DNA of 48,650 bases from Nitrospirota bacterium. GTDB lineage: Bacteria > Nitrospirota > JACRHL01. Of the stretch, positions 13,627 to 31,997 are shown piece by piece. The position numbers and the translations under genes were made by a program. The notes beneath the pieces are model-generated. The model saw only the letters and a program-made list of their open reading frames with translations. It did no database searches and had not been told where the DNA came from. Every line of letters begins with the position of its first letter. The stretch's first letter is position 1. The stretch is taken from assembly GCA_029858285.1 (NCBI GenBank), contig JAOUFN010000018.1, forward strand, positions 1-48,650, written 5' to 3'.

Positions 13627-13881
13627 TCGTTTACGATCCGGGACCACTCCCTGAACTGCAGGCGACACGGCGCACACCACAACGGGCGGTTCGCAGGCGA
13701 CGCCTCCCCGATGACATGCATGGACTTTGCCGCATCGACGCACAACGCCATCAAATTTCGTAAATTCCTATAAATGCTGGCGATTCTACCTGTTTTTTCA
13801 CTTTTTTTCAAACCTTGCACCCCATGATCCGGAGGGGGAAACGGTGCCAGTAAGGGTAAATATTTGCCGAAAAACAGGTCG
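13627..13881. other. AT-rich intergenic spacer carrying the giant-gene promoter
   Basis: This 255-bp gap separates the second SUMF-like gene from the giant gene. It contains an unusually AT-rich stretch (about 13755-13810) in an otherwise GC-rich window. The promoter called separately implies a leader of about 150 nt. I found no clear terminator for the upstream operon, so read-through from the cytochrome genes remains possible. Confidence 0.6.
13783..13811 (-). promoter_or_regulatory. Sigma70-like promoter for the giant gene
   Basis: On the minus strand, TTGAAA (13806-13811) and TAGAAT (13783-13788) are separated by exactly 17 bp. The spacer and upstream sequence are A-rich. Transcription would begin near 13776 and run into the gene starting at 13626. 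It is the best promoter match on the minus strand in this locus. Confidence 0.65.
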
Positions 13882-14652
13882 TCATGGCTGCGATTTTGCG
13901 CATCGGAAACCAAACGCCGGGGCCCCCAGTTCCGGCAGCGAGGCGTGCCGGTTGGCGGACCTCAAAAACACCTCGGGAGCCCCCCAGGATCCCCCCTTGA
14001 GCACCCGGTACTGCTCCCCGAAGGCAACACGTTGCAGGTCGGAGCCGGGGTGCGCCCGGTACCAGGTGGCGGTCCACTCCGCCACGTTGCCCGCCATGTC
14101 CAGCGCCCCGTAGGGGCTGGCGTTATCCGGGTGGCTGCCGACCGGATCGGGAAAATGCCCGTTCTCCACCGACACCACGCGGGCCGCGTCGAACCGGTTG
14201 CCCCACGGGTACAGCCGCCCGTCCTTCCCCCGCGCCGCCTTTTCCCACTCCGCCTCGGTGGGCAGCCGCTTGCCCGCCCAGGCGCAGTAGGCCGCCGCAT
14301 CGTCATATTTCACCGCGATCACCGGCTGGTCTTCGCGCGGCGTGGTGTTGCTCCACGCCCAGTCCGAAAACGGCTGGTGCCCGCTGGCGGCCAGAAAAAC
14401 CCGGTAATCACCCACGGTCACCTCGGTGCGGTCGATCCAGAATTCCGGCAGCACCACCCGGTGCCTGGGCATGGAGTCGATGCCCACCTCCACCCCCACC
14501 TCGCCATCCGCGGCATCCTGCCCCATGATGAACGCCCCTGCCGGAACCCGAACCATCCCCTCCACGGCGGGTGCGGCCAGCCGTTGCGGGGCAGCGCACG
14601 CAGCCAGTAACAGTACGGCGGCCCACCCGAATACAACCAGGGCAGAACGCAT
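13882..14652 (-). CDS. SUMF1/FGE-fold lipoprotein lacking the catalytic cysteines (copy 2)
   Basis: A 256-residue protein. The start at 14652 gives a lipoprotein signal ([16 protein letters not shown]) and overlaps the preceding stop, arguing against the longer frame. The rest is one SUMF1/formylglycine-generating-enzyme domain: GMVRVPAGAFIMG at the front, [14 protein letters not shown], a central [39 protein letters not shown] and a final GFRCA. Known FGEs have active-site Cys residues after the GGSW segment; here that segment reads KGGSWGAPEVFLRSANR with none, so oxidation of sulfatase cysteine is unlikely. The family also includes non-catalytic or alternative members such as PvdO- and EgtB-type proteins. 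It is a tandem duplicate of its upstream neighbour and sits at the end of the cytochrome operon, suggesting an envelope role in maturation or binding. Confidence 0.8.
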   Translation of the reverse strand: MRSALVVFGWAAVLLLAACAAPQRLAAPAVEGMVRVPAGAFIMGQDAADGEVGVEVGIDSMPRHRVVLPEFWIDRTEVTVGDYRVFLAASGHQPFSDWAWSNTTPREDQPVIAVKYDDAAAYCAWAGKRLPTEAEWEKAARGKDGRLYPWGNRFDAARVVSVENGHFPDPVGSHPDNASPYGALDMAGNVAEWTATWYRAHPGSDLQRVAFGEQYRVLKGGSWGAPEVFLRSANRHASLPELGAPAFGFRCAKSQP

Positions 14653-15467
14653 CAGGGTTCCCCCCCCTCCTGCGCCGAACGGGCACAGCGAAACCCCATG
14701 GAACGGTGACGCTTGTCCGGTTTCGACGCCATGGTGCGGTTGCTCACCCGTCCATAGGGTTGTCCCGGCATCAGCCAACTGCCGCCCCGGGACACCTTGA
14801 GCACCTCGCCGAAGGAATTGCGCTGCAGGTCCGATCCCGGATACGCGGCGTACCAGTCGGCCACCCATTCGGCGACATTGCCGCACATGTCCATCACCCC
14901 GTAGGGGCTGACATCGCCCTCCAGTGTGCCCACCGGGGTGGTCCAGGCGAAGTTGGCGTCCTGGGTGTTGCAGTTTCCCGCCCGGTAGTCATCGCCCCAC
15001 GGATAGTTGCGGCCGTCGGTGCCGCGCGCGGCCTTTTCCCATTCCGCCTCGCCGGGCAGGCGCTTTCCCGCCCAGACGCAGAAGTCATTGGCATCGTCCC
15101 AGGTGACGTACACCACCGGATGATTGGCCAGGCCCTGGGGATAGTCCCCGTCTTTCCAGGCGAAGAACTCCTTGAAGCGCGGATCGGCGGGGGCCTCTCT
15201 CCCGGTGGCGGTCACGAATTCCCGATACGCCACATTGGTCACCTCGGTGCGGTCGATCCAGAACCCGGGCAGGGTCACCGCGTGACGCGGCAGAGAGTCC
15301 ACCCCCACCTCGGTTCCCACCTCGCCATTACTGGCATCCGCGCCCATCTGAAAGGGACCGGGGGCGATCCAGACCATGCCCTGCGGCGCCCCGGCGGCGG
15401 CGCTTTCGCCCCCCCCCGGCCACGCCAGCAGCAGGGCAAGCCCCACCGCGGCCCTAGCCGGGAACAT
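14652..15467 (-). CDS. SUMF1/FGE-fold secreted protein lacking the catalytic cysteines (copy 1)
   Basis: A 271-residue protein. I chose the ATG at 15467 because it opens directly onto a signal peptide ([16 protein letters not shown], cleavage near GES-AAAG) behind a G-rich ribosome-binding region; a longer frame begins at 15500 inside the cytochrome gene. The SUMF1 domain has [73 protein letters not shown] and GFRCA. As in copy 2, the Cys pair expected after GGSW in true formylglycine-generating enzymes is absent. It overlaps the large cytochrome gene by 14 nt and copy 2 by ATGA, so the three are one transcription unit. The strong similarity of the N-terminal 60 residues of the two copies shows a local duplication. 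Confidence 0.8.
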
Positions 15468-18234
15468 CCCCCCCCGCACACCACAGGACGGTGGTGCCAT
15501 CCGGAGTCAAGGTGGTCGCCACGTCAGGGGACTGGTAGCTGCAGAAGTCCATCACCTCGCCGTGGCAACGCACCGCGCAACTGAAGCGGTTGTTCTGATA
15601 CCTCCATACCGGTTTGGCCGCCAGGGTGCCTTCGGCCTGGGGACCGAAGTTGATCAGGTGGGTGTTGACCACCCCGTCCAGGGCGCCGTCCGTGGCGTCC
15701 GGCGGCAGCAGTCCGCCCGCGCCGTTGCCGTAGATGGTGTTGGTGGCCTCCACGTTGGAGTGCACGTTGTAGTGACATTCGTGGCAATAGGCGCCGGTCC
15801 ACTGCAGGTGATACATGTGCAGGTTGCCGTTCCACCAGTTCGTTCCCTGTCCTGGCACCCCGCTGGGGTAGGCGGGGGAGCCGAAGAAGCGCGTCCAGCT
15901 CGGGTCCACCCGGTCGGCCCCCGGCCAGTTGGGATCGAAGGCGCGCCGGTCGTGGCACTGGAAGCAGAGCAGGAAGTTGTTCCAGTGGTTGGCGCTGGCG
16001 CCGTCGCTGGCGGTACATCCCAGCTTGCTGCCCGGCGGCACGCCGCCCACGGCGGGGTTGCCCTCGTAGCAGCGGTCCGGATTGAGGATGTCGGTGTTGT
16101 AGTTGTTGCGCAGCAGCCGCAGTTTGGTGGAACCGTGCGGCCCGATCGCCGGGTAGTCCGGGAACACCGGTTTGAGCGGCAGGAACCCCGAAGGGGTGTC
16201 GGTGGCGCGCAGGTTGGACTCGGTCACCGGCCCCGCCACCACGCTGGTCTGGTCGGAATTGTGGCAGTCGGTGCACTGGATGGTGCTGTTCACCGTCAGC
16301 CCGGAACCCGACATCTGCAACTGCTTGTCGAGTTGCGGCGAGCGGTTGCGGCCCGGCGACGCCACCGGGTGAAAGGCGGCGTTGACCGGTTGCTGGGTGT
16401 GATCGATGGCGGTGTCCGGGGTGTTCGGGTCGAACTCCTTGCGCTTGTTGGAAAATCCCCGGTAGCTGAAGGACGGCTTGGTGGGCAACAGGTCGCGCGG
16501 GTCGGAACGGTGCGTCGTATCGTCCGGGAAGCGGTCGCCGACGAACACGTTCACATAGCTGTTGCCGTGGCAGCGCAGGCACACCTCGAACACATACGCC
16601 TCGCGGTCGTTGCCCGGCACGCCGGGCCCCACCACGTTGCCGTTGATGTCGATGCCGCGCATTCCCTTCAGCCGGTTGCCGGGCACCACTTGGTGCGGGT
16701 TGTGGCAGTCGGTGCATTCGATGTGGGCGTTGTCGGGTTTGCCCAGGCCGATGATGCCCTCGTTGCCCGCAGGCGGGTTCGGCGACGCCAGTTCCACCCC
16801 CTCGCCGGGATTGGCGATAAACACCGGATCGTGCCCGGTGGCCAGCTTCAGGTTCATGGCGGACCCGCAATGGGTGCTGGCGGGACTGTACACCGGCGGC
16901 ACGCTGCCGTTGGCGGGCTGGCAGTTCTGCTGCAACTGGTCCTTGGCAAAATGGCTGTAGATGTCCGGCGCCACGGTGGCGGTGGTAAAGCGCGGATTGG
17001 CGGCGTTGGTGGGGTCACCCGCGGCCACGGTATAGCCTGCGGCGTTGGCGCCGATGGCGCTCTGGTTGGGGGCGTGGCACAGGAAGCAGGTGCTTTCCAC
17101 CGCGTCCTCGGCGTTTGCCGCATAGGCTCCCACCCCCTCGCGGTGCAGGCGCTTGGCGCCCTGGGCGGTGTGCGGATCGTGACAGTTGCGGCAGGCGGTC
17201 TGCGCCACCGTGTGGGTGCCGTCAAAGTCGTAACCGTCGGTGCTGGTGCCGCGCTTGGGATACTGGCTGCGCACCGCCGGACTGACCGCGTGGGTGCTGC
17301 CCGCCCAGCCGGGCTTGTTGTGACAGTTGAGGCACAGAATGTCGGAGCCGGCCGGGTCGTTCTGCCAGATCGGCGCACGCAGGAATTTGGGATAGGTGAC
17401 CGCGTGCGGGTTGTGGCAACTGGTGCACTGCACCGAATCGAACACCCCCTGGGTGGTGCCTTCGGCGCGGCGCAACGGAGAGATCGGGCTGCCCCCGGCG
17501 ATGTTGGCCAGCGGTGGGCCCGGATCCACCAGTTCGGCGTCCTTCTGGGCCAGCAGCGAGTCGAAGCGGAACGACACCGGGTGGTCGTTGGTCAGGTCGG
17601 TGCCCAGACGCCGGGTATCGCCGCCGTAGGCGTTGGCGTTGGGGTCGTCCGCCAGCCCGGCGGGCATGGTGATGCCGGAGGGGCCGCCGCTGACCGCCCC
17701 CGGGGCCTGGGTGCCCGAGGTGGTGCGCTGCTGTACCGGAACACTTTCCTGGGTGGTGGAGTTGAAGCCGCCGGAGCCGGGGGCGTTGATCATGCTGCCC
17801 AGGGCGATGGTGCCGTCGTGGCACGACAGGCACAGGCGCGAATAGCCGGTGGGGGCGCCGGGGTGAACCTCGCCCTCGAAGGAGCGCGACCACACCTGAT
17901 CGTACAATTTATAGCCGCCGGGGACATTGGACAGGTGGCGGTTCCACAGCGGGCCGTTGACCTGGGTACCCTCGGTGCCGCCGTGCGGGGTGTGGCAGAA
18001 CACGCAGATCTCGCCGCTGGCCGAATACACCGTGTATCCCGCCTGACCGCTGGCTGCGGGGCCGTGGGTGGACAGGTTGTGCTTGGTGCTGGCGATGTCT
18101 TCCACCGCCTCCACCGCCGGAGGCACCTGGGCCCCCGCGATCAGGACATGCATCAGGACCCCCGCCCAGGCCCCCCCCAGGATGCCGAGCGCGACCTTGC
18201 CAAACGTTTTCCGGGACATCTGGATTGCTCTCAT
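15454..18234 (-). CDS. Large multiheme c-type cytochrome (11 CXXCH + 1 CX3CH) with N-terminal OmcE-like module
   Basis: A 926-residue exported cytochrome; GTG 18237 or ATG 18219 are alternative starts, and the ATG at 18234 overlaps the preceding TGA. It has a hydrophobic N-terminus (MSRKTFGKVALGILGGAW..). There are eleven CXXCH motifs (CVFCH, CLSCH, CTSCH, CLNCH, CRNCH, CFLCH, CTDCH, CLRCH, CTDCH, CFQCH, CHECH), and near the C-terminus CAVRCH, a CX3CH that could bind a twelfth haem. Residues about 45-310 align by eye with the tetraheme protein at 22521-23621: TKHN, CVFCHTPHGG, PLWNR, CLSCHDGTI, MINAPGSGGF, NDHPVS, CTSCHNPH, CLNCH. The remaining 600 residues are a separate 8-haem extension. 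It is translationally coupled to the NHL gene before and overlaps the SUMF gene after it. A plausible role is the terminal, basal or outer-membrane-associated partner of filament subunits (inference). Confidence 0.88.
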   Translation of the reverse strand: MRAIQMSRKTFGKVALGILGGAWAGVLMHVLIAGAQVPPAVEAVEDIASTKHNLSTHGPAASGQAGYTVYSASGEICVFCHTPHGGTEGTQVNGPLWNRHLSNVPGGYKLYDQVWSRSFEGEVHPGAPTGYSRLCLSCHDGTIALGSMINAPGSGGFNSTTQESVPVQQRTTSGTQAPGAVSGGPSGITMPAGLADDPNANAYGGDTRRLGTDLTNDHPVSFRFDSLLAQKDAELVDPGPPLANIAGGSPISPLRRAEGTTQGVFDSVQCTSCHNPHAVTYPKFLRAPIWQNDPAGSDILCLNCHNKPGWAGSTHAVSPAVRSQYPKRGTSTDGYDFDGTHTVAQTACRNCHDPHTAQGAKRLHREGVGAYAANAEDAVESTCFLCHAPNQSAIGANAAGYTVAAGDPTNAANPRFTTATVAPDIYSHFAKDQLQQNCQPANGSVPPVYSPASTHCGSAMNLKLATGHDPVFIANPGEGVELASPNPPAGNEGIIGLGKPDNAHIECTDCHNPHQVVPGNRLKGMRGIDINGNVVGPGVPGNDREAYVFEVCLRCHGNSYVNVFVGDRFPDDTTHRSDPRDLLPTKPSFSYRGFSNKRKEFDPNTPDTAIDHTQQPVNAAFHPVASPGRNRSPQLDKQLQMSGSGLTVNSTIQCTDCHNSDQTSVVAGPVTESNLRATDTPSGFLPLKPVFPDYPAIGPHGSTKLRLLRNNYNTDILNPDRCYEGNPAVGGVPPGSKLGCTASDGASANHWNNFLLCFQCHDRRAFDPNWPGADRVDPSWTRFFGSPAYPSGVPGQGTNWWNGNLHMYHLQWTGAYCHECHYNVHSNVEATNTIYGNGAGGLLPPDATDGALDGVVNTHLINFGPQAEGTLAAKPVWRYQNNRFSCAVRCHGEVMDFCSYQSPDVATTLTPDGTTVLWCAGGDVPG

Positions 18235-19397
18235 CACCTGTTACCGCCTTCTGCAGATTCCTCCGCCTGTGTCGGGTCCGTTGCCTGCTCCGTCCCTGCC
18301 GGCTGCCCGGCTTCCGCCGGCTGCGCGGGAGGCGGCAGTCGCCGGAACACCTGAATCCGGTTGTTGTGGGTGTCGGCCACGAACACGTCGTCGCCCGCCA
18401 CCGCCACGCCGATCGGCAGCCACAGTGCCCCCGGACGGCTGCCCGCCTCGCCAAAATGCATCAGCAGGCCACCGTCGGCGCCGAACATCTGCACCACATC
18501 ATAGATGCCGTCCACCACGAACAGGGTGCCGTCGGCGGCCAGCGCCACCCCCTTGGGCTTGGCGAAGCTGCCCACCGAATCCCCCAACTGGCCCACGTGG
18601 CGCAGGTAATCGCCCTCCGAACCGAACACCTCCACGCGGAAATTCAGGGAATCGCTGACAAAAATATTGCCGTCGCCGTCGAGTGCCACATGAGTCGGAA
18701 AATTGAATTGTCCCTCGCCATCGCCGCGCTGGCCGATCGCCCGTAACAGATGGCCGTCGCCATCGAACACCAGCACCCGGTGGTTGCCGGTGTCGGCGGC
18801 GATCAGACGGCCCCGGACCGCATCCCAGACCAGCCCGGAAGGGCGGACCAGCCCCTCGCCGAACCAGCCGATCAGGCGGCCGTCGGTGCGGTACAGAAAA
18901 ATTTTGTTCAGGATCGAATCGCTGACAAAGATGCGCTGCCCGGCCGCGTCGAAGGCCACCCCCACCGGTGACGCCAGCCGGTCGTCCCCGACAATGCGGA
19001 AGGCCTGGGCGTAGGACGGCTTTTTCAGGTTGAAGATGTGCACCACCTGCAGCCCGGTATCCGCCACCAGCAGCCAGCCGTCGGCATCGGCGTACAGCCC
19101 CGTGGGGTTCTCCACCCGGGGCGGCTTTTCCTTGCCGACCACGGCGCGGAACAGGCGCCTGGCGCCACGCTCCTGAATGCCGATGTCGGCGGGCACGGCG
19201 ATCTGGCGCAAAAATGCCACCCGGGGGGCGTCCGGCGGCACCGGCCACACCCGTTGCATGTCCGGCACCGGCTCGGGCAGGGGTTTGGGGGCCGAGGCGC
19301 ACCCGGCGGCCAGCAGCAGGGCCGCGCAGGCCGCTGCCAGCAACCCGGAAGCGGGCCGCTGCCAGAGGCGTGGGGTGATGCGGAAAGGGGTGCGCAT
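18234..19397 (-). CDS. NHL-repeat beta-propeller lipoprotein (copy 2)
   Basis: A 387-residue protein with a lipoprotein signal (MRTPFRITPRLW.. LLLAAGC) followed by VWPVPPDAPRVAFLRQI and six NHL repeats (about residues 105-360). Each repeat has the sequence style PxGVAxDxxGxxFVSDSxxxRVxVF, so a six-bladed propeller is expected. The start overlaps the beta-barrel stop by one base (TGATG) and its stop overlaps the large cytochrome. It is a paralogue of the protein at 23719-24879; both carry the same WPxPPxxPRxxF lead-in. NHL propellers are binding or scaffold domains, and genes for them are often found near Geobacter-type outer-surface cytochromes, which suggests a role in presentation, anchoring or assembly. 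Confidence 0.85.
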   Translation of the reverse strand: MRTPFRITPRLWQRPASGLLAAACAALLLAAGCASAPKPLPEPVPDMQRVWPVPPDAPRVAFLRQIAVPADIGIQERGARRLFRAVVGKEKPPRVENPTGLYADADGWLLVADTGLQVVHIFNLKKPSYAQAFRIVGDDRLASPVGVAFDAAGQRIFVSDSILNKIFLYRTDGRLIGWFGEGLVRPSGLVWDAVRGRLIAADTGNHRVLVFDGDGHLLRAIGQRGDGEGQFNFPTHVALDGDGNIFVSDSLNFRVEVFGSEGDYLRHVGQLGDSVGSFAKPKGVALAADGTLFVVDGIYDVVQMFGADGGLLMHFGEAGSRPGALWLPIGVAVAGDDVFVADTHNNRIQVFRRLPPPAQPAEAGQPAGTEQATDPTQAEESAEGGNR

Positions 19398-21295
19398 CAG
19401 AAGCTCCGCGTCACGTTCAGGCGCACGTTGTTGACGTTGTCGCGGCCATAAAAGCTGCCCTCGTTGCGGAACGTGGTGTCGGCGTTCAGGCTGGCCCGCA
19501 GCAGGCCGATGGAATAGCCAAGCTCATAGGCCAGCCCGGCTTCCTGCACCTGATACCCGCCCCCCGCCCAGGTACGCCGCGCATTGCCCTCCAGCCGCTG
19601 GGTGCCGCGCAGGAAGGCGGTGCCGTTCCAGGCCAGGGTACTGTGCGCCTCCTGGTGCGCCCCCTGCATGTCTTCGGAACTGCGCGCGATGCTGTAACCG
19701 CTGCGCGCCTCCAGCCCGGACCAGAAGCGGTAGGTGCCGTCCAGTGTGAAAATGGAGGTGGAAATATCCTGCTGCGTCCAGAACAGGCGGCTGCGGGACT
19801 GGGTCATGGAAAAATCCCCGGACAGCACGTCGCTGGGCAGCAGCAGGGCGGTGCGCGGCTGAAAATTGCCGTTCAGCGTCAGGTAGTGCTCCTGGGTATA
19901 GGGCGACATGCCGTGCCCCGGCGGCGCCTCGCGGATGTCGGTGAACTGGTAAAAGCTGGTCAGGCGCACCCAGTCCACGGTGTGATCCGCGAGGGTCAGG
20001 TTCAGGGTGTCGGTCAGGCGGTCGCTGGCAGTCCCCCCGGACGACACCACATAGCCGGTGGTGACCCCCCAGCCGAAGGTGAGGGGTTGAAACTCATGGC
20101 GGGCGGTGAAAAAGGCGCCGCTGTTGTAGGCGCCAAAGCGGTGTTCCTGCCCCAGCGAATTGCGCGTGACGTTCTGCGCCACACCCAGATTCAGGCCGGT
20201 GCTCCAGCCCAGCCGGGGCCGATGGACCACCCCCATGCTGGCGCTGCCGGTGTCCAGCTGCGAGGACTGAATGTCCAGACGGCGCACCGCAACGCTGCCG
20301 TTCACGTCGGTGCGGGTGCCCAGACGCCGGGTGCCGCGCCCGTACATCTGCTGGCTGGTGAGCGGATCGGTCTGCTCCTGGGGTATTTCGGAAAAGTCGT
20401 AAGCCAGCGAGCCGCTGGAAATGGCCTTGTTGCGGTAATTGACCAGCCCGCCGTAATTGTTGGACAGGAAGATGGACCGGCCCCCGGCGATCCGCGTCGA
20501 GGTGCTGTCGCGGGTGGTGCGGTTGGCATAAAGGTTGGACGAAATCCGCTCCGACCAGTCCGTGGCGGACGACAGGGACAGCCCGTGGGCGCTGGTCTCG
20601 CTGCCTGCGGCGCGGAACTGCGAAAAACGGTAGGCGCTCTGCAGGCGCGTGGCGCTGCCCAGGTCAAAGCGCTTGTCCAGGCTGGCCATGCGCCCGATGC
20701 CGGTGGCGGCCGAATCCACCGTCTGGGAGGTCTGGCGCAGGGACACGCCCAGGGGATTGCCGTCCGGCATCGGCACCCGGGTATTGAAGTCCACGCTGGT
20801 TCCCAGCGCGGAGCGGTCCACCGGCCGCCCGTTGCCGTTGTCGGTAATGGAACGGGTGAGGGTCAGGTTCATCGGCACCCGGGTGGGGAACAGGGTGAGG
20901 CCGAAGTTCAGGTCGGTGGTGCGGTAATTGTTAGCCCGCGCGCCGCCGCCGGTGCCGTGGTCGTCGCTTTTGGTGTCCCGCAGTCCGGCGCCGAACGTCC
21001 ACATCCCCAGTTCCCGCCGCAGCACATTGCCGGACAGGTTGAAGCGGTATACCTGCTGGAACTCGGTGCGCACGGAGTTGGAGGAGGGGGTGTTCACCTC
21101 GGTGCGGCCATAGGACCAGCTCAACGCCCCGCCCAACTGCATGGCGGCGGCGGGCTGCGGGATGGCCAGCGCGGCGAAAATCGCCAGCGCGGCCGGCAAA
21201 AAAAGCCCCGGCCACCGGGACTTGCCGTCCCCTCCCGGCCAGGCACCCCGCCTCAGGGGACGCTGGCCGGGTCCAATGCAACGCTGACGCGGCAT
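19397..21295 (-). CDS. Outer-membrane beta-barrel protein of a cytochrome/filament locus
   Basis: A 632-residue protein. After a long Arg-rich start comes a hydrophobic signal segment (about residues 29-51, LFLPAALAIFAALAIPQPAAA). The mature part alternates polar and aromatic residues in short strands with Asn/Ser/Thr turns, and ends NVRLNVTRSF; a terminal Phe is the usual signal for outer-membrane barrel insertion. The size would suit a barrel of more than 20 strands, comparable with MtrB/PioB-type or Pcc porins of metal reducers, but I see no N-terminal CXXC of the MtrB type and cannot assign a family. It begins 14 nt after the PPIase and is coupled to the NHL gene. Likely role: a pore through which a cytochrome or filament contacts the outside (inference). 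Confidence 0.75.
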   Translation of the reverse strand: MPRQRCIGPGQRPLRRGAWPGGDGKSRWPGLFLPAALAIFAALAIPQPAAAMQLGGALSWSYGRTEVNTPSSNSVRTEFQQVYRFNLSGNVLRRELGMWTFGAGLRDTKSDDHGTGGGARANNYRTTDLNFGLTLFPTRVPMNLTLTRSITDNGNGRPVDRSALGTSVDFNTRVPMPDGNPLGVSLRQTSQTVDSAATGIGRMASLDKRFDLGSATRLQSAYRFSQFRAAGSETSAHGLSLSSATDWSERISSNLYANRTTRDSTSTRIAGGRSIFLSNNYGGLVNYRNKAISSGSLAYDFSEIPQEQTDPLTSQQMYGRGTRRLGTRTDVNGSVAVRRLDIQSSQLDTGSASMGVVHRPRLGWSTGLNLGVAQNVTRNSLGQEHRFGAYNSGAFFTARHEFQPLTFGWGVTTGYVVSSGGTASDRLTDTLNLTLADHTVDWVRLTSFYQFTDIREAPPGHGMSPYTQEHYLTLNGNFQPRTALLLPSDVLSGDFSMTQSRSRLFWTQQDISTSIFTLDGTYRFWSGLEARSGYSIARSSEDMQGAHQEAHSTLAWNGTAFLRGTQRLEGNARRTWAGGGYQVQEAGLAYELGYSIGLLRASLNADTTFRNEGSFYGRDNVNNVRLNVTRSF

Positions 21296-21309
21296 GGACC
21301 CGCCGCCCC

Positions 21310-22440
21310 CTACTCGGGGAACTCCAGCTTGGCCCCGCCCATCAGGCCCTTGAGCCAGGCGTCACGGGCTTCCATACGGCGCGCAGCCAGCCATTCCGAG
21401 GCAAACAGTTCAAGTTTGAGTCCGTCAAATGCCATCAGCCGCCCCTCCACGCGCCGCGTCACATGCACCAGCGCATATCCGAACAGCGTAAACACCGGTT
21501 CGCTGATCTCCCCCGGCTTCAGGGCAAAAGCCGCCTTGCCCACTTCATCCAGGTCCGCCTGACCCTCGTGGATCAGCCCCAGATCCTCGGCGCGCACCCC
21601 CTTCCGGGTGGCAGCCTCCTGCCACACCACGTCCAGCGGCTCGCCGTCGGTCACCCGCTGGCGGATGGCCGCCACCTGTTCGCGGGCGGCCTCCCACACA
21701 TCCTGCGGGGAGCTGGCCTCCACCTCTACCAGCAGGTAGCGCACCTCCGCCTGGGGCGGAATGCGGAACTTGTCCGGGTTGGCGGCGTAATATTCCCGCA
21801 ACTGCGCCTGGGTGGGGGGGGGCACGCTGCCCTCCACCTGCTCCTCCACCTTGCGCACCAGCACATAATCCCCAAGGCCCTCGCGGATGCGCTCGACATC
21901 CAGCCCCCGAGCCGCCACCGCCTTGAGATAGGACGCCTCGTCCCGGAAGCGGTCACGCAGGGCCTTTTCCTCCTGGTCAATCTCGGCGTCGGTCGCCCGG
22001 ATGCCCTTTTTGCGGGCATCCTGCAACATCAGGCGGAAAAACACCATTTCCTGCAACAGTTCACGCTGATACCTCGCCACGCGCTCTGGCGACAACTCGC
22101 CGTGGCTGCCCGTCGCGGGCAGGCGCAGGACGATGCGGGCGTTGAACTCCGAGGTCAGGATCGGGTCGCCATTGACCCGCACCAGCACCGGGTCTTCCTC
22201 TGCTTTTCCCGCGCCCGCCGCCTCGGGGGCGGCGCTTGCGGCGTCCGCCCCGGCAGCCGGAGCCGCGGCGCTTTCAGTCGCGGCTGGCCCCGCGGCGTCG
22301 GCCGCAAGGGCGCGACCACACCACGGCGCAGTGGCGGCGGCCCACAGGACCGCCGCCACCCATACCGGCATGAACCACCGGCCGGGCCGGTGCCATGTCT
22401 TGCCTAAACAGGCTTTACCGCAGGAAGACACCAACATCAT
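21310..22440 (-). CDS. Periplasmic parvulin-type (SurA/PpiC-like) peptidyl-prolyl isomerase
   Basis: Up to 376 residues; ATG 22440 or 22371 are both possible and neither has a strong ribosome binding site. The latter gives a tidy signal peptide (MPVWVAAVLWAAATAPW..ALA-AD). An Ala-rich linker leads to a SurA-N-like segment (DPVLVRVNGDPILTSEFNAR, residues about 85-230) and one parvulin domain (about 237-340) with VRYLLVEVE, LDVVWQEAATR, EDLGLIHEG, AAFALKPGEISEPV and FGYALVHV. SurA has two parvulin domains; this has one. It lies directly between a tetraheme cytochrome and an outer-membrane barrel, so a dedicated chaperone for one or both is the simplest reading. PPIases are encoded next to several cytochrome-filament genes in other bacteria as I recall it. 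Confidence 0.85.
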   Translation of the reverse strand: MMLVSSCGKACLGKTWHRPGRWFMPVWVAAVLWAAATAPWCGRALAADAAGPAATESAAAPAAGADAASAAPEAAGAGKAEEDPVLVRVNGDPILTSEFNARIVLRLPATGSHGELSPERVARYQRELLQEMVFFRLMLQDARKKGIRATDAEIDQEEKALRDRFRDEASYLKAVAARGLDVERIREGLGDYVLVRKVEEQVEGSVPPPTQAQLREYYAANPDKFRIPPQAEVRYLLVEVEASSPQDVWEAAREQVAAIRQRVTDGEPLDVVWQEAATRKGVRAEDLGLIHEGQADLDEVGKAAFALKPGEISEPVFTLFGYALVHVTRRVEGRLMAFDGLKLELFASEWLAARRMEARDAWLKGLMGGAKLEFPE

Positions 22441-22453
22441 TTTCCAGAGACTG

Positions 22454-22480
22454 GGGCCGCCGGCACGTGGCCGGCGGCCC
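22454..22480 (-). promoter_or_regulatory. Strong intercistronic hairpin
   Basis: A perfect 11-bp G+C-only inverted repeat with a 5-nt loop (left arm 22454-22464, right arm 22470-22480) sits 40 nt after the tetraheme cytochrome stop and 14 nt before the first PPIase start. No U-tract follows on the minus strand. It is better explained as a 3' stabiliser or partial attenuator that makes the tetraheme mRNA more abundant than the downstream genes. Confidence 0.6.
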
Positions 22481-22520
22481 GGTTACAGATGACTCTCTGT
22501 CTCCGTCCCTTCCGCACCAG

Positions 22521-23621
22521 CTATTTCTGGTGGCAGGAGAGGCAGATCGCGCTCTGGAAGTTCGGGTTGTTGCTGAGGTTCTGGGTGTCGGCAGCGACCC
22601 CCGTCACAGCAGCCCACGCCGTGACACCACCGCCGGAAGGCAGCGGCAGCGGCAGCCCGGTGGCAGCCGCCTTCACGTTCGGCAACCGCAGGAACAACGG
22701 ACGCGGGGTGTGCGGGTTGTGGCACGAGGCACACTCCACAAACTCACCCGTGGTGCCGGTGGTCGGATCCGGGTAGGCCCGGATGCGGTCGCGAATGTCT
22801 GTGTTGTAGTCCGCTTCCAGCGCCGAATTGCGGTTCAGGTAGGTGACGAAACTGCCGGCCGGCTTGTTGAAGTTGGCGATGATTTCGGCGAACTGCGGAT
22901 CGGTGGTCGGAATCTGGATGCTGATCGGGTGATCGTCACTCAGGTCCTTGGTCAGGTTGGGGAACGGCGCCATACCCCAGGTACCGGTGGTCGGCACCGC
23001 ACCGGTGTTGTCCGCACCCGCAAAGAATTGCGAAGCGGTCTGCGGGCCCAGCACGGTCTGGAAGCAGGCCACCGTGGTCGCGGTGCCGCAGGCATTGCGC
23101 AGCGCGCCGCTGAGCACGCCGGCGGCGCCCACACCCAGGGTGTTGGGGGTCAGCATGCCCATGCTGGTGACGGTACCGCCCACAGTCTTGTTGCCGGGCA
23201 GGAAGCCACCCGAGCCGGGGGCGTTGATCAGGGCATCAATCCCGATGGTGCCGTCGTGACACGACAGGCAGGCCAGGGATACGCCCTGGGGCTGCAACGC
23301 GGTGGCGTTGAAGTTGGGGCTCGAGTACAGGGTGTACCCGGCGCTCGCCGGCAGCGCGCGGTTCCACAACGGCGCGGCGGCGTTGTCGGTGCGGCCACCG
23401 TGCGGGGTGTGGCAGAACACGCAGATCTCGGTGGTGGGCGCCGCGGCGGTCGGCACCATGATGTCCGGATTGCGGAAGAAGTTGTGCTTGGTGTTCTTGA
23501 CGTCCTCGGCGGGCAACGTCGCGTTCGGCCACGCCTGGGCGTGGGCCTGTTTGGTCGGCATCGCCAGCGCCAGCCCCACCAGGGCCAGTCCGACGGTTGC
23601 AAAAGTCAGTTTGCGAAACAT
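22521..23621 (-). CDS. Exported tetraheme cytochrome, OmcE-like filament-subunit candidate
   Basis: A 366-residue protein with a signal peptide (cleavage near QAHA-QA, residue 28) and four CXXCH motifs: C67VFCH, C118LSCH, C297ASCH, C360LSCH, the last ending the protein. Family-like landmarks are TKHNFF (His46), CVFCHTPHGG, PLWNR, GYTLYSSPNF, CLSCHDGTIGIDALINAPGS, DDHPIS (His231) and CASCHNPH. This order and spacing resemble Geobacter OmcE, a tetraheme cytochrome that polymerises into extracellular filaments with one haem ligand coming from the next subunit. His46 and His231 are candidate distal ligands. It has the best ribosome binding site of the locus (AAGGAGG, 5 nt spacing) and a hairpin after its stop, both fitting high expression. 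Filament formation here is inference. Confidence 0.9.
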   Translation of the reverse strand: MFRKLTFATVGLALVGLALAMPTKQAHAQAWPNATLPAEDVKNTKHNFFRNPDIMVPTAAAPTTEICVFCHTPHGGRTDNAAAPLWNRALPASAGYTLYSSPNFNATALQPQGVSLACLSCHDGTIGIDALINAPGSGGFLPGNKTVGGTVTSMGMLTPNTLGVGAAGVLSGALRNACGTATTVACFQTVLGPQTASQFFAGADNTGAVPTTGTWGMAPFPNLTKDLSDDHPISIQIPTTDPQFAEIIANFNKPAGSFVTYLNRNSALEADYNTDIRDRIRAYPDPTTGTTGEFVECASCHNPHTPRPLFLRLPNVKAAATGLPLPLPSGGGVTAWAAVTGVAADTQNLSNNPNFQSAICLSCHQK

Positions 23622-23625
23622 GGTT

Positions 23626-23633
23626 TCCTCCTT
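23626..23633 (-). promoter_or_regulatory. Strong Shine-Dalgarno of the tetraheme gene
   Basis: AAGGAGGA on the minus strand is placed 4-5 nt before the ATG at 23621. It is close to consensus, while most other genes of this operon rely on overlapping stop/start codons. This supports the chosen start and suggests the tetraheme protein is made in excess. Confidence 0.85.
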
Positions 23634-23718
23634 GTTGTCTTCCCAAAACGGGGGCGCCCCTGCACGGGCAACCCCGCCCCTGTCGAATCACACCACTCCC
23701 GGTCCATTGTCGTCGGCA

Positions 23719-24879
23719 TCAGGGCGCCGAAGGCGCCACTGGCGCCGGGGGGGGTGTGTCAGCCTTGATTTCCCCTGCGGGTTCCCCCGCAGGGTCATCC
23801 GGATAGCGGATGTACTCGTACACATTGATGCGGCGGTTGAACTGGTCCGCCACGTAAATCCGGTCGTCCGGCCCGACGGCCAGCCCCGCCGGCATCCAGA
23901 ATTGCCCTGGGCCTGCGCCCATCTCGCCGAAAAACAGGAGCAGGCGCCCCTGAGAGTCGAAAATCTGCACGTTGTTGAAGGCGGCGTCGGTCACATAGAT
24001 GTGCCCCGCGGAGTTGATGCCCAGGCCCTTGGGCTTGGAGAACTGCCCGAAACCGCGCCCCACGCTGCCCAGCTTCCACAGGAACTCCCCTTCCGGGTTG
24101 AACACCTGAATGCGGAAATTGAGCATGTCTACCACATAGACATTGCCGTCCGGCCCCACCGAGACGTTGGTAGGCCAGTTGAAGGCGCCGTCCAGGGAGC
24201 CGGGACCGCCGAAGGTCTTGATGAAATTGCCGTCCAGGTCGAACACCGCCACCCGTTGTTCGCGGGTGTCGGCCACGTAGACACGCCCGGCGGCGTCATG
24301 CACCGCCAGCCCCACCGGCTTGGCCAGATGGTCGTGACCGCCCATGGCGTTCACATAATTTCCGTCGTGGTCATACACCACCACCCGCGCCTGCTGGGCG
24401 TCGGTGACGTAGATCCGGCCCCGGGCGTCGGTGTCGATGGCCAGCGGTTGCGCCAGCACCCCCAGGCCGTCCACCCCCAGCATCCAGAATTTCTTGCCCG
24501 CCTCGTCGAACACCAGCACCTTGCGCCAGCCGGTATCGGCCACGAACAGGCGGCCCGAGGCGTCCACATGCACGCCGTACGGCTTGCTCAGGCCGGTGGC
24601 GGTGTCGCTCCCGGCAATCAGGCTCATCAGGGCGTTGGTGGCCTTGGCCGAGACATCGGCGCTGGACGAGATGCTCTTCACAAAGCGGATGCGCGGTTTT
24701 TCCGGCGGCAGCGGCCACACCACCTCGGGGGGGGGCTTTTTGGGGCCGGAGGCGCAACCGGACAACACCAGCATGGCGGCGCACGGCACCAGCAGGGCCG
24801 CCAGCAGGAGGCCGGCCGACAGGCGCCGCAGCGACGGGCGGCGGGCAGACGGATTCGATATGGCGTGTCTATTTTTCAT
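23719..24879 (-). CDS. NHL-repeat beta-propeller lipoprotein (copy 1)
   Basis: A 386-residue protein with a lipoprotein signal (about residues 20-43, LVLSGC) and the lead-in VVWPLPPEKPRIRFV. Six NHL repeats (about residues 93-362) of the form PxGLxVDxxGRxYVADxxxxRVxVFD should make a six-bladed propeller. A short Pro/Ala-rich tail follows. It overlaps the pentaheme gene by 11 nt and precedes the tetraheme gene by 97 nt. With its paralogue at 18234-19397 it gives a pattern in which each NHL gene is followed by a cytochrome carrying the OmcE-like module, so a one-to-one partnership is plausible. Confidence 0.87.
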   Translation of the reverse strand: MKNRHAISNPSARRPSLRRLSAGLLLAALLVPCAAMLVLSGCASGPKKPPPEVVWPLPPEKPRIRFVKSISSSADVSAKATNALMSLIAGSDTATGLSKPYGVHVDASGRLFVADTGWRKVLVFDEAGKKFWMLGVDGLGVLAQPLAIDTDARGRIYVTDAQQARVVVYDHDGNYVNAMGGHDHLAKPVGLAVHDAAGRVYVADTREQRVAVFDLDGNFIKTFGGPGSLDGAFNWPTNVSVGPDGNVYVVDMLNFRIQVFNPEGEFLWKLGSVGRGFGQFSKPKGLGINSAGHIYVTDAAFNNVQIFDSQGRLLLFFGEMGAGPGQFWMPAGLAVGPDDRIYVADQFNRRINVYEYIRYPDDPAGEPAGEIKADTPPPAPVAPSAP

Positions 24880-25672
24880 GGCACGTCAGGCACAGGGCGC
24901 TGCCCTGATTGGAGACCCGCAAAAACGGGTCGCGCCCCTCGGAGTTGTCCTCATCCGGGTTATGAATATCGTGACAAGTCGCGCATTGTACCTTATTCCC
25001 CTCGTAGGTCTGTATGCCGTTTTCAAAAGCCCTGCCGCCGTCGCCCTTGTCGAGGGGTGGCTGGTGGAACTGGGGATCGACGCGGCGGTTCGGGTAGACC
25101 ATGGAAATGGGGTGGTCGTCGCGCAGATTCTGGGTAAGGTAGCGGATGGAGGCGTCGTGGGCCGCGTTCACGCCGCCAATGCCCCCCTCGGCGCGGCTGT
25201 GGCACTTGGCGCACGATTCGGAGCCCCGCGCCGCATCGGTGGCGTCCATCTTGTAGTGCACCTGGGAGTCCGACCACTTGTGGTACTGCGGTTTGTTGCG
25301 CACGTCGTCCACCGCCACGGTGCCGTCGTGGCACGACAGGCAGGCCAGGGAAATACCGTCCGGCGCCGCCACCGGGCCGGAGTTGAAGTTGGGGCTGGAA
25401 TACATGCTGTAGCCGACGGTGTCCGACAGATTGCGGTTCCACAGCGGCGCCACCGGGCTGCCGTTGTGGGGAGTGTGGCAATAGATACACGCTTCGCGGT
25501 AGTCGTTGAAGGTGAAGCCCTGCATCGGACCCGTGGGAGAACCGCCGTAACCGCGCTGGTTGAAATGCGACAGGTCGTGGCGCGAGCCGATGATGGTGCC
25601 CGCGCCCGCCACGCCGACGGTCACCAGCGCCACCAGCGCCAACAGCAGAGGAGTCAGGCGCGCCGCCCTCAT
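24869..25672 (-). CDS. Exported pentaheme cytochrome with OmcE-like module
   Basis: A 267-residue protein with a signal peptide (cleavage near AGA-GT, residue 24) and five CXXCH motifs: C62IYCH, C111LSCH, C154AKCH, C230ATCH and C261LTCH, which ends the protein. It shares with the tetraheme neighbour SRHDLSHF (His32), CIYCHTPHN, PLWNR, YSMYSSPNFN, CLSCHDGTVAVDD, DDHPIS (His187) and the C-terminal CXXCH. The additional haem (C154, SCAKCHSRAEGG) lies between haems 2 and 4, where the tetraheme protein has a long haem-free insert. Its ATG overlaps the preceding stop (ATGA) and its end overlaps NHL copy 1. Alternative filament subunit, adaptor or periplasmic relay are all possible. Confidence 0.9.
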   Translation of the reverse strand: MRAARLTPLLLALVALVTVGVAGAGTIIGSRHDLSHFNQRGYGGSPTGPMQGFTFNDYREACIYCHTPHNGSPVAPLWNRNLSDTVGYSMYSSPNFNSGPVAAPDGISLACLSCHDGTVAVDDVRNKPQYHKWSDSQVHYKMDATDAARGSESCAKCHSRAEGGIGGVNAAHDASIRYLTQNLRDDHPISMVYPNRRVDPQFHQPPLDKGDGGRAFENGIQTYEGNKVQCATCHDIHNPDEDNSEGRDPFLRVSNQGSALCLTCHEK

Positions 25673-26892
25673 GCGCCCCCCTCAAGGCCGTCCAGGCGGC
25701 TGATGCCGGCCATGGTGCCAAACCACTTGCGCCCCCGGCCGTCCACCGCCAGCGCGAACACGGAGTCGGAAATCAGCCCGTCGCGGCTGGTCAGGGACTG
25801 CCAGCGGCCGTTCCGGAGCAGGCTCACGCCGCCGTCGCTGGTGGCCCACAGGGTGCCGTCGGCATCGGCGTAGAGGTCGGTCACAAAATTTCCCGCCAGC
25901 CCGTCGGCACGGGTGAAAGTCTGCCAGCTTTTGCCGTCAAAACGCGACAACCCGGCGCCCCAGGTACCGAACCACTTGTTGCCGTCGCGGTCGATGGCCG
26001 CCGACAGCACATAGTTGGGATTCGGCCCCTCCGCATCCTTGCCGGGGGTTTCCCGGTGGTGGCGGCTGGGGTTGCCCAGCGGCTCCTCGTCGGCCACCCG
26101 CGACGCTTCCGCCCCCAAGCCGTCGGAGTGGGTCCAGGTATGCCACAGCTTGCCGTCGAAGGAGCTCACCCCGCCCTCGGTGCCCAGCCACAGGGTGCCG
26201 TTTTTGTCCTGGGCCATGGCATAAACCCAGTCGTCGGCCAGACCGTCCGTGGTGTGAAAAGTATTCCAGCGCTTGCCGTCGAAGTGCGACAGGCCGCTCC
26301 AGGTGGCCACCCAGTAGCCCTTGCCGCTCACGTCGGCGAGCACCTGATAGACAAACGGATCGCCCAGCCTGGGCACGCTGGTGTGGGTCCAGCGCCCGTT
26401 CAGCACGTGGGTCAGGCCGCCGCCGTGGGTGCCCACCCACATGCCGCCGTCGGGGGCCACTTCCACCGCCATCACGTTGCTGGAGAGGAGCCCGGATTTG
26501 GTGTCGTAGCGGGCCACCACCTCGTCCCGCACCTGATTGTAGCGCAGCAGCCCGCCCTCGGTGCCCACCCACACCTCGTCGCCCTGAAAGGCCATGGCGT
26601 GCACGCTGGTGTTGAGCTCGAACTGGGTCCAGCGGGGGTGCAGCGCGGGAACGGCTGCCGACGCGGTGGCGGCTGCCGGAATCACGGCAGAGCGGCCGGT
26701 TTCCGGCATCGATCCAGAGCGGGCAGCATCCCCCTGGGAACCGCCCTGACGGTCACAGCCGGCCAGCAGCACGCCCACCACCGCGACCAGCGGGAGCAAG
26801 AGGGAAATCAGCCGGCAATGGGGCGGTACGGACAAACTGATTTTCGGAAAACCTTTTGCGCAGAAGACAAAAAACCCGGAAAAAAGCGCCAT
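25669..26892 (-). CDS. Reg_prop (two-component-regulator-type) beta-propeller lipoprotein
   Basis: About 407 residues. I take the ATG at 26892, with AGGGAGA just before it; an earlier in-frame ATG at 27081 gives an unlikely long leader, and a TTG at about 26838 would leave a shorter signal. The lipobox is LLAGC. The remainder has about seven repeats of the ligand-sensor propeller found in the extracellular part of hybrid two-component kinases: VWVGTEGGLLRY, MWVGTHGGGL, YWVATWSGLSHFDGKRW, LWLGTEGGVSSFDGKLW, KWFGTWGAGLSRFDGKSW, LWATSDGGVSLL, KWFGTMAGISRL. No kinase or DNA-binding domain is attached, so it is a free outer-membrane-anchored propeller. It is the first gene of the series and is coupled to the pentaheme gene. 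Confidence 0.82.
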   Translation of the reverse strand: MALFSGFFVFCAKGFPKISLSVPPHCRLISLLLPLVAVVGVLLAGCDRQGGSQGDAARSGSMPETGRSAVIPAAATASAAVPALHPRWTQFELNTSVHAMAFQGDEVWVGTEGGLLRYNQVRDEVVARYDTKSGLLSSNVMAVEVAPDGGMWVGTHGGGLTHVLNGRWTHTSVPRLGDPFVYQVLADVSGKGYWVATWSGLSHFDGKRWNTFHTTDGLADDWVYAMAQDKNGTLWLGTEGGVSSFDGKLWHTWTHSDGLGAEASRVADEEPLGNPSRHHRETPGKDAEGPNPNYVLSAAIDRDGNKWFGTWGAGLSRFDGKSWQTFTRADGLAGNFVTDLYADADGTLWATSDGGVSLLRNGRWQSLTSRDGLISDSVFALAVDGRGRKWFGTMAGISRLDGLEGGA

Positions 26893-27601
26893 TCTCCCTG
26901 CCGACAAGGGCGGGACAAACGGGGCCGCCCGGTGCGGGAGACACCGGCTCAGGGAAGTTTTTTTCACAGGTTCGGACACATCCGTCCTACATTTTTCCCA
27001 ACAACAACCGGGTTTTATAAACTGTGGGGGCGGGCGCGATGCTACCGGCCACGGAGCCCCCGCGTCAACCCACGCGGACATCTCCGCCCCGCAACACGGG
27101 CCGCATCACCACGCAAGCCACCGCAAAAACGCACCACGAGGGCCGCATCACAAACCCACCCCGCATCGCCCCCGCAGCCCTCCGGGCCACCGGAACGAGA
27201 CAACGCCCACCCCTGCGAAACGCCAGCATGAAGCCCCCGCGCTGCCTCCCCGGCAACGGCCCCGCCGGACACCCTCCGGCAGAACCGGTGCAAGGAACAT
27301 GCCGATGGGGCACTCCCCCGGGGTCCGAAAAAAGTCTCCGCAATCTTCCTCCCCCCGCCGGGGATCAATTCCACGTTTTTCGTCGTCGGATGACTTGACA
27401 TCCACTGGCCAGAATTGTTAAAAAACCTGCTCAGTTGATTCCGTCGTCAGGATGCGTTTGTTTAAAACCGGTGCCGCCCGGTGTTGCGGATTGTCCGGTG
27501 CGTCAGTTGATCCGGGGTTGCGTTTGATCCGGTGTAGCGTGGTTCCGGCCGGGCGTTCGGGCGCCTGCGGGATGTAGCGCAAGGCCACAATGAGGTTGAC
27601 C
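26893..27601. other. 700-bp divergent intergenic control region
   Basis: This gap separates the minus-strand cytochrome operon from the plus-strand triheme genes. Frames through it are Arg/Pro-rich artefacts without start signals. It contains a promoter facing right (27395-27423) and a locally AT-rich stretch near 26955-27015 where the leftward promoter may lie, but I could not find a convincing -35/-10 pair there. The 3' part (27430-27560) has several loosely repeated gatccgg/ccggtg words. This is the natural place for shared control of both arms. Confidence 0.55.
27395..27423 (+). promoter_or_regulatory. Promoter candidate for triheme genes
   Basis: A perfect TTGACA (27395-27400) is followed after 17 bp by TTAAAA (27418-27423), a weak -10. 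It would give a leader of about 170 nt before the ATG at 27602. A perfect -35 with a poor -10 often goes with activator control. Confidence 0.45.
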
Positions 27602-27991
27602 ATGAAAAAGCGGCCCATCGCCAGGCCCATCGTTCTGTTCCTTGCGCTGACAGCAATTGTCAGCGGCCTGTTTGTGTTCGGGGGCCAAAATACCTCGCGG
27701 GCGGAATACGGGGACATCACCCTGAACCGCCACGCCGAAAAGGCCGGCATGCCGCCGGTGGTGTTTCCCCACTGGTTCCACCGCATCCGCTTCAAGTGCA
27801 AGGTGTGTCACCCGGCCATTTTCGAGATGCGCGCGGGCTCCAACGACATCACCATGAAGAAGATCGTCAACAAGGAGTTCTGCGGCCGTTGTCACAACGG
27901 CACCATCTCCTGGCCGCCGCTCTACTGCGACCGCTGTCACGCGGGCAAGAGCGACATCACCATTCCGAAGGCCCGCGGCTTCGTGAAGTGA
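27602..27991 (+). CDS. c7-type triheme cytochrome (1)
   Basis: A 129-residue protein started at ATG 27602, which has GAGG 6 nt upstream; ATG 27590 lies before that site. A signal peptide or anchor spans about residues 9-33. Three haem motifs, CKVCH, CGRCH and CDRCH, follow the pattern PPVVFPHWFHRIRFKCKVCH, where His residues before the first motif should be distal ligands. This is the class III / c7-like triheme family that TIGRFAMs models as nanowire_3heme (TIGR04257, from memory). Such small cytochromes shuttle electrons in the periplasm. It is divergent from the OmcE-like operon and followed 58 nt later by a second triheme gene. Confidence 0.87.
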   Translation: MKKRPIARPIVLFLALTAIVSGLFVFGGQNTSRAEYGDITLNRHAEKAGMPPVVFPHWFHRIRFKCKVCHPAIFEMRAGSNDITMKKIVNKEFCGRCHNGTISWPPLYCDRCHAGKSDITIPKARGFVK

Positions 27992-28025
27992 CCCGGTGGC
28001 GCCGCGACTGATGCGTTGCGTGTGT

Positions 28026-28045
28026 AAGGATTGAGCAAGGATTGA
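28026..28045 (+). promoter_or_regulatory. Duplicated ribosome-binding element
   Basis: AAGGATTGA occurs twice (28026-28034 and 28037-28045) directly before the ATG at 28050. Each copy contains AAGGA, the second at workable spacing. It supports the chosen start of the second triheme gene. Confidence 0.6.
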
Positions 28046-28049
28046 TGCC

Positions 28050-28751
28050 ATGACCCATCTTCGGAAACTCCTCATTGTTCCGGCCCTGTGCGCGGCCGTG
28101 GTACTGGCGCTGTTCGCCCACGGCCCCGTGGTGCAGGCGCAGGACAAGCCGACCGCAGCCAAACCCGCCGACGGAAAGCCGACGGAAGACGCCTTCTTCC
28201 AGTCCCTCATCGACCCCAAGCAGGCGATCTGGATGGACAGCACCGGCCAGATTGCCGGCACCGGCGACCCCAACGGTTTCGCGGGCGAAGCCTTCAAGAT
28301 GGGGCGCGGCGCCCATCCCGAGGCGCTGGAACTGTCCAAACTGCCCACCGACGTCTACGGCCTGGTGGACTGGGCCCGCGCCATTCGCGAAGGCTATGTC
28401 ACCCCGCGCCATACCCTGGACCCGGCCAAGCAGGACAGCCCGGACGACAAGCCGTTCGGCCTCGCCCTGCTCATTCCGGCCAAGTCCGAGAGCATGCCGG
28501 ACGTGATCTTCCCGCACGACATCCACACCATGTGGCTGACCTGCAACAACTGCCACCCGGAAATTTTCGCCATGAACGGGGCCATGAACAACAAGGTCAT
28601 GACCATGCCGAAGGTGGCTTCCGGCGAGTACTGCGGCCGCTGTCACAACCGCATCGCGTTCCCGCTTTCGGACTGCAACCGCTGCCACGTGCACGACAAG
28701 GGCACCGGCGCCCCCGAGGGCGTGAAAGTGCCCGCCGACTACACCCCCTAA
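28050..28751 (+). CDS. c7-type triheme cytochrome with long N-terminal spacer (2)
   Basis: A 233-residue protein with a signal peptide (MTHLRKLLIVPALCAAVVLAL, cleavage near VQA-QD). A haem-free segment (about residues 35-150, with repeated FxxSLIDPKQAIW and DWARAIREGYVTPR features) precedes the triheme domain: DVIFPHDIHTMWLTCNNCH, CGRCH and CNRCH. The FPH..H element before the first haem motif matches its neighbour. The long leader segment may be a docking region. As the last gene before a large hairpin it probably forms a two-gene operon with the first triheme cytochrome, giving periplasmic carriers for the divergent conduit genes. Confidence 0.87.
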   Translation: MTHLRKLLIVPALCAAVVLALFAHGPVVQAQDKPTAAKPADGKPTEDAFFQSLIDPKQAIWMDSTGQIAGTGDPNGFAGEAFKMGRGAHPEALELSKLPTDVYGLVDWARAIREGYVTPRHTLDPAKQDSPDDKPFGLALLIPAKSESMPDVIFPHDIHTMWLTCNNCHPEIFAMNGAMNNKVMTMPKVASGEYCGRCHNRIAFPLSDCNRCHVHDKGTGAPEGVKVPADYTP

Positions 28752-28838: not shown

Positions 28839-28929
28839 TTGCCGCTTCCCCCGCGGGAGGCCCGCGGCGAGACACTCTCCCGCACCATGGCGGTTGCGCA
28901 ACCCCCCTCCGCCGGGCGATCCTGACACC

Positions 28930-30654: not shown

Positions 30655-30747
30655 CCGGATTCACTCCGCCTCCACCGCCGCCTCCACCGTCAACGGCGCG
30701 CCGACCAATCACCACATCCCGGCGCGATAAGGTCCTCCTCCCACAGG

Positions 30748-30753
30748 TATAAT
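30748..30753 (+). promoter_or_regulatory. TATAAT box 8 nt before cbiD
   Basis: A perfect TATAAT ends 8 nt upstream of the cbiD ATG. No -35 match sits at 16-18 bp and there is no Shine-Dalgarno between it and the ATG. If used, it would give a leaderless or nearly leaderless mRNA. Confidence 0.35.
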
Positions 30754-30761
30754 CCCCGACG

Positions 30762-31886: not shown

Positions 31887-31920
31887 AGGCGCCGGCAGCC
31901 CATTCGTCCCGCTCAACACA

Positions 31921-31950
31921 TTGACCGTTCCACCCCGTCCCGCCTATCCT
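31921..31950 (+). promoter_or_regulatory. Promoter candidate for cbiC-cbiET
   Basis: TTGACC (31921-31926) and TATCCT (31945-31950) are separated by 18 bp in the 111-bp gap after cbiD. It would allow cbiC and cbiET to be expressed apart from cbiD. The leader would be about 40 nt. Confidence 0.4.
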
Positions 31951-31997
31951 CAACCCACCCCCTCCCGATGATTTGATCCCGCCCCCAAGGAGTCCCC

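Follow-up and report, generated by a model that had tools for sequence, protein, structure and literature searches.

The window analysed here is a 48,650-nucleotide stretch of a 2.56 Mb Nitrospirota genome, and the locus under study occupies its middle part. Minus-strand genes encode, in order of transcription, a Reg_prop protein, a pentahaem cytochrome, an NHL protein, a tetrahaem cytochrome, a peptidyl-prolyl isomerase (PPIase), a barrel, a second NHL protein, a 12-haem cytochrome and two PF03781 proteins, and this series is faced by two plus-strand PF14522 c7 trihaem genes (Table 1). Most neighbouring genes overlap or abut, with gaps ranging from -47 to +97 bases. Open reading frame, motif and Pfam checks confirmed, gene by gene and position by position, the gene list of an earlier sequence-only reading. 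For the last SUMF gene, the GTG at 14886 extends the reading frame too far upstream, an ATG at 14652 preceding the lipobox, and the true start of the Reg_prop gene is probably internal, before lipobox LLAGC.

Table 1. Genes of the locus, with positions in the window, strand and supporting evidence.
Feature	Position	Strand	Evidence
Reg_prop (two-component-regulator propeller) lipoprotein	25669-27081	-	PF07494 E=4e-25
Pentahaem cytochrome, OmcE family	24869-25672	-	5 CXXCH; 7TFS E=1.6e-22
NHL propeller lipoprotein 1, paralogue of NHL2, UetH/I-like	23719-24879	-	PF01436 E=6e-31
Tetrahaem cytochrome, OmcE family, UetA positional counterpart	22521-23621	-	4 CXXCH; 7TFS E=1.3e-17
SurA/parvulin-type periplasmic PPIase (UetB)	21310-22440	-	PF13145 E=4e-14
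Outer-membrane beta-barrel (UetC)	19397-21295	-	AlphaFold2 model, Foldseek, profile match
NHL propeller lipoprotein 2 (UetI position)	18234-19397	-	PF01436 E=4e-26
UetJ-type conduit cytochrome	15454-18237	-	11 CXXCH + 1 CX3CH (CAVRCH) = 12 haems
FGE/SUMF-fold protein without FGE cysteines	14652-15500	-	PF03781 E=1.5e-56
Second FGE/SUMF-fold protein, lipobox LLAAC, without FGE cysteines	13882-14652	-	PF03781 E=2.9e-56
c7-type trihaem cytochrome, UetD/E/G family	27590-27991	+	PF14522
c7-type trihaem with N-terminal extension, UetD/E/G family	28050-28751	+	PF14522

The sequence-only reading did not recognise this gene set as described, an assessment that has to be revised, the set being largely that of the published undecahaem electron transfer (Uet) cluster, which was reportedly defined in Eddie 2022. 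As far as the accessible text of the Uet papers extends, the cluster comprises an undecahaem UetJ, an extracellular tetrahaem UetA, trihaems UetD/E/G, a PPIase UetB, a barrel UetC and NHL proteins UetH/I (PMC10734462), is written uetABCDEFGHIJ (PMC12575090), and is known from Ca. Tenderia electrophaga, Gallionella and Leptothrix (PMC10734462, PMC12575090). Scanning a genome collection with a UetJ alignment returned 80 loci, spanning Nitrospirota, Pseudomonadota, Myxococcota, Verrucomicrobiota, Planctomycetota, Calditrichota, KSB1, Bacteroidota and Acidobacteriota. Ca. Tenderia electrophaga is absent from the 80 loci returned, and the Uet identity therefore rests on gene content and on loci from Gallionellaceae (L090, L112), Sphaerotilus (L099) and other Proteobacteria. 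The proteobacterial order is OmcE-like gene, PPIase, barrel-sized ORF, three or four c7 genes, NHL, NHL and UetJ, and tblastn comparison with these loci gave 23-35% identity for most window proteins and about 30-58% for the trihaems. The window shares with Uet the UetA tetrahaem, the UetB PPIase, the UetC barrel, c7 trihaems, an NHL pair and UetJ, in the order A-B-C..(NHL)-J. It differs in the twelfth haem (CX3CH) of its UetJ, in an extra pentahaem OmcE-like protein with an NHL gene between pentahaem and UetA, in trihaems moved to the facing position, and in added pseudo-FGE and Reg_prop genes; two trihaems are present instead of three, and neither a third UetD/E/G-type trihaem nor UetF was found within the window.

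The grouping of the partner genes seen in the sequence-only reading is conserved: the same order recurs in other Nitrospirota families and in other phyla, and the gene set is thus not a matter of chance. A UetJ match at 1e-60, in some cases partial, was present in 49 of 396 Nitrospirota genomes. Where the sequence upstream of UetJ extended for at least 8.5 kb (63 loci), the partners comprised NHL (53), OmcE-like (46), barrel (45), PPIase (43), c7 (38) and Reg_prop (11) genes, counts that are not independent events, since some loci come from related species or from the same contig fetched twice, and that for the barrel rely on an HMM trained partly on the counted loci. In 22 of 89 loci a SUMF protein is encoded no more than 3.5 kb downstream of UetJ. 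Nitrospirota loci commonly carry a pentahaem and tetrahaem OmcE-like pair with an NHL gene between them and trihaems facing.

Comparison of the cytochromes with solved structures confirmed that they are, as proposed, strongly related to OmcE. Phmmer searches of the PDB ranked OmcE of Geobacter sulfurreducens (GSU0618, PDB 7TFS) and 9YUQ first for all three proteins, the 7TFS values for the two small cytochromes being those in Table 1, with 9YUQ at 1.9e-19 for the pentahaem and 9e-12 for the tetrahaem, and the 12-haem protein matching 7TFS at 2.9e-16 and 9YUQ at 2e-15. A profile built from 19 small cytochromes matched OmcE at 2.6e-47 and 9YUQ at 8.4e-35; a specific link to OmcS was rejected, the match (9.4e-5) being confined to short stretches round haem motifs. 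Homology with OmcE and 9YUQ extends over the full length and includes four CXXCH motifs, four distal histidines and a C-terminus just past the last CXXCH. These distal histidines, H32, H69, H187 and H237 in pentahaem numbering, are invariant in all 19 small cytochromes, and a simple pattern search across 63 members of the OmcE family, among them OmcE and 9YUQ themselves, recovered the motifs in 59 to 63 of them. The fifth haem (His158) and His139 co-occur in the same 10 of the 19 relatives, and H139 is therefore the probable ligand of the fifth haem of the pentahaem protein. Unlike OmcE, the window proteins carry insertions, including a long one ahead of the last haem of the tetrahaem protein; a fifth haem is present in one of them, and UetJ contains one copy as a fusion. 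OmcE and 9YUQ nest inside the family in a tree of 83 rows, for which both sequences were rebuilt from printed alignments, OmcE minus 12 residues; the window tetrahaem and pentahaem belong to two separate Nitrospirota clades, and the UetJ modules cluster, imperfectly. Elsewhere in the same genome, a further protein with four CXXCH motifs and a THDFS start motif (L173:6704-7462, contig G000:C38), possibly OmcE-like, sits downstream of a gene that by eye resembles phosphoglucosamine mutase.

The 12-haem protein differs in architecture from the two small cytochromes. A profile of 22 large cytochromes gave one unbroken match to OmcE residues 13-232 (1.7e-45), and since nearly all of OmcE is matched in one stretch, the N-terminal part of UetJ (residues ~45-308) is a complete OmcE tetrahaem module. 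H53, H85, H219 and H278, the counterparts of the distal histidines in the small cytochromes, are invariant in 22 of 22 UetJ proteins. Over most of its length the window protein is homologous, at 27-33% identity, to the proteins that occupy the UetJ position in proteobacterial loci. Among the UetJ proteins of loci L046-L143, the CX3CH twelfth haem occurs in long Nitrospirota UetJ and in most short, mainly non-proteobacterial UetJ, and is missing from nearly all proteobacterial UetJ. An AlphaFold2 model built from a 22-sequence alignment was discarded because of its mean pLDDT of 36, so the path of UetJ through the barrel is one that we only infer.

These data bear on the original proposal that the 12-haem protein is a filament cytochrome, which is better replaced by that of a conduit cytochrome, UetJ, with an OmcE-like module. 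In its full form the proposal takes an OmcE-like extracellular filament as the main product of the locus, the 12-haem protein as another of its subunits and the rest as export or assembly factors. The OmcE homology of all three cytochromes, together with a PPIase and secreted partners, is in keeping with it, but UetJ with a barrel and trihaems matches the described conduit, and no polymerising subunit with 12 haems and of this size is known to us; we regard this account as unlikely.

The remaining conduit components were compared with known systems. The AlphaFold2 model of the barrel (pLDDT 84) has 30 predicted strands, the sequence ends in a C-terminal Phe, and Foldseek with this model retrieved outer-membrane barrels, among the best MtrB (6r2q_B). 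These matches show the class of the predicted barrel and no close family, the TM-score to MtrB being only 0.37. The MtrB family gave no Pfam match for the barrel or its relatives, and a Nitrospirota-only barrel HMM reached no proteobacterial barrel at 1e-5; profile-profile comparison aligned the window barrel family with the proteobacterial barrels at a probability of 98.5 over 529 columns. The locus thus shares with MtrCAB and Pcc an outer-membrane barrel and a multihaem cytochrome, but differs from them in the barrel just described, and its cytochromes match MtrA and MtrC models only weakly, round haem motifs. The PPIase is 23-31% identical to those at the same position in proteobacterial loci, and the tetrahaem gene lies directly upstream of it, as it does there.

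A combination of PPIase, propeller and large cytochromes also occurs in the Oet cluster, which encodes a propeller, a PPIase and two large cytochromes (PMC5539420). The OetABI conduit of ANME-partner sulfate reducers resembles the locus in holding such genes in one operon, and an Oet/Omc-type conduit for interspecies electron transfer was accordingly weighed. The core cytochromes of Oet carry 16 and 26 haems, against 12, 5 and 4 haems here, the cluster is differently organised, and the genome has no DsrA over cut-off; on haem numbers above all, this assignment was judged very improbable.

Among the accessory proteins, NHL lipoprotein 1 shares 28-35% identity with UetI-position proteins of proteobacterial loci, and NHL lipoprotein 2 directly precedes UetJ, as in other loci. 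Trihaem 27590-27991 has best matches 44-58% identical to proteobacterial Uet-locus trihaems, and trihaem 28050-28751 shares 30-43% identity with such proteins. A Reg_prop homologue adjoins the Uet genes in many Nitrospirota loci, and the same holds for L079, L096 and L099 (Sphaerotilus mobilis); as these last three are proteobacterial, the Reg_prop partner may predate the Nitrospirota variant. Alignment of the FGE-fold protein 14652-15500 to 6muj/2q17 placed no Cys at the catalytic region, and only 1 of 48 relatives has two Cys there; true FGE function was rejected on the missing catalytic cysteine pair. With the PF03781 proteins PorK/GldK and PvdO the window pair shares the fold family only, besides being secreted or lipoproteins, and unlike FGE/SUMF family proteins it lacks the catalytic cysteines and is located next to UetJ. 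Tandem UetJ pairs followed by two FGE-fold proteins were seen in Proteobacteria (L108, L117, L119). Beyond the cluster, positions 1168-13743 (minus strand) encode a secreted-looking protein of 4191 aa with IPT/TIG-like repeats recognised by eye and an fn3 match; a homologue adjoins UetJ in genome G001 (L046), and L051 gave a weak match. On the other side, an ABC exporter and the cobalamin genes CbiD and CbiC (28894-32690, plus strand) directly follow the trihaems and are probably unrelated.

Considering these comparisons together, the locus is probably a Nitrospirota variant of the Uet trans-outer-membrane conduit, with the small, secreted OmcE-like cytochromes perhaps docking on the OmcE module of UetJ. 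The c7 trihaems would shuttle electrons between the conduit and carriers of the inner membrane, the later UetJ haems would line the UetC barrel, and the OmcE-like module of UetJ would present a haem end at the cell surface. The tetrahaem protein, the pentahaem protein or both could dock there through the OmcE subunit-subunit contact, extending the haem chain outward, while UetB may assist the folding of these loop-rich cytochromes, and roles as envelope scaffold or assembly factors may fall to the NHL, Reg_prop and pseudo-FGE proteins.

Whether this chain extends into a filament is a separate matter. Kinship with OmcE is no proof of a filament, which is plausible, at about even odds. A plain porin-cytochrome conduit would dispense with it, the small OmcE-family proteins sitting singly on UetJ as capping or terminal cytochromes, as MtrC caps MtrAB. 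Consistent with this, related modules exist as parts of UetJ, a fusion that prevents free polymerisation, and some UetJ loci have no OmcE-like gene in the fetched flank. The Uet descriptions, in their accessible text, also present UetA as an extracellular tetrahaem, with no word of a filament (PMC10734462). Against it, 7TFS, the nearest relative of known structure, is the subunit of a filament (PMC9473688, PMC12954529), the 9YUQ entry contains 16 copies, and every OmcE haem ligand is kept. We rate the plain conduit a serious contender, a little short of an even chance. A more specific proposal, which we advance only tentatively and hold to be possible, makes UetJ a nanowire socket, its N-terminal OmcE-like module serving as the first filament subunit, fused to a barrel-spanning conduit cytochrome, with the small cytochromes polymerising on that module.

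For the Uet-type conduit, the likely direction of transfer would be electron uptake from an extracellular donor, since uptake is the role assigned to Uet in Tenderia and in iron oxidisers and, as a weaker point, the genome encodes a cbb3-like CcoN, which falls below the CcoN family's own cut-off, and an ATP-citrate-lyase-like gene. Such a gene set agrees, weakly, with oxygen respiration and reverse TCA alongside electron uptake. Searching the genome returned neither CdhC nor RuBisCO, and no DsrA above the cut-off, leaving sulfate reduction, the acetyl-CoA pathway and the Calvin cycle unsupported.

These results place the Uet system in Nitrospirota and several further phyla. The link between Uet and the OmcE family, and the fusion itself, were not found in the accessible text of the Uet papers (PMC10734462, PMC12575090), and the novelty of the fusion is not certain. 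In Geobacter, the passage of electrons from extracellular cytochrome filaments to the inside of the cell, or the reverse, is described as not well understood (PMC10553843). The fusion of an OmcE module to a conduit cytochrome is the most useful point here because it suggests a way in which the filament could join the conduit, and a conduit cytochrome with a built-in OmcE module beside free OmcE-like subunits provides a concrete, testable docking model. If UetJ does serve as a socket, filament and conduit would form one continuous haem chain.
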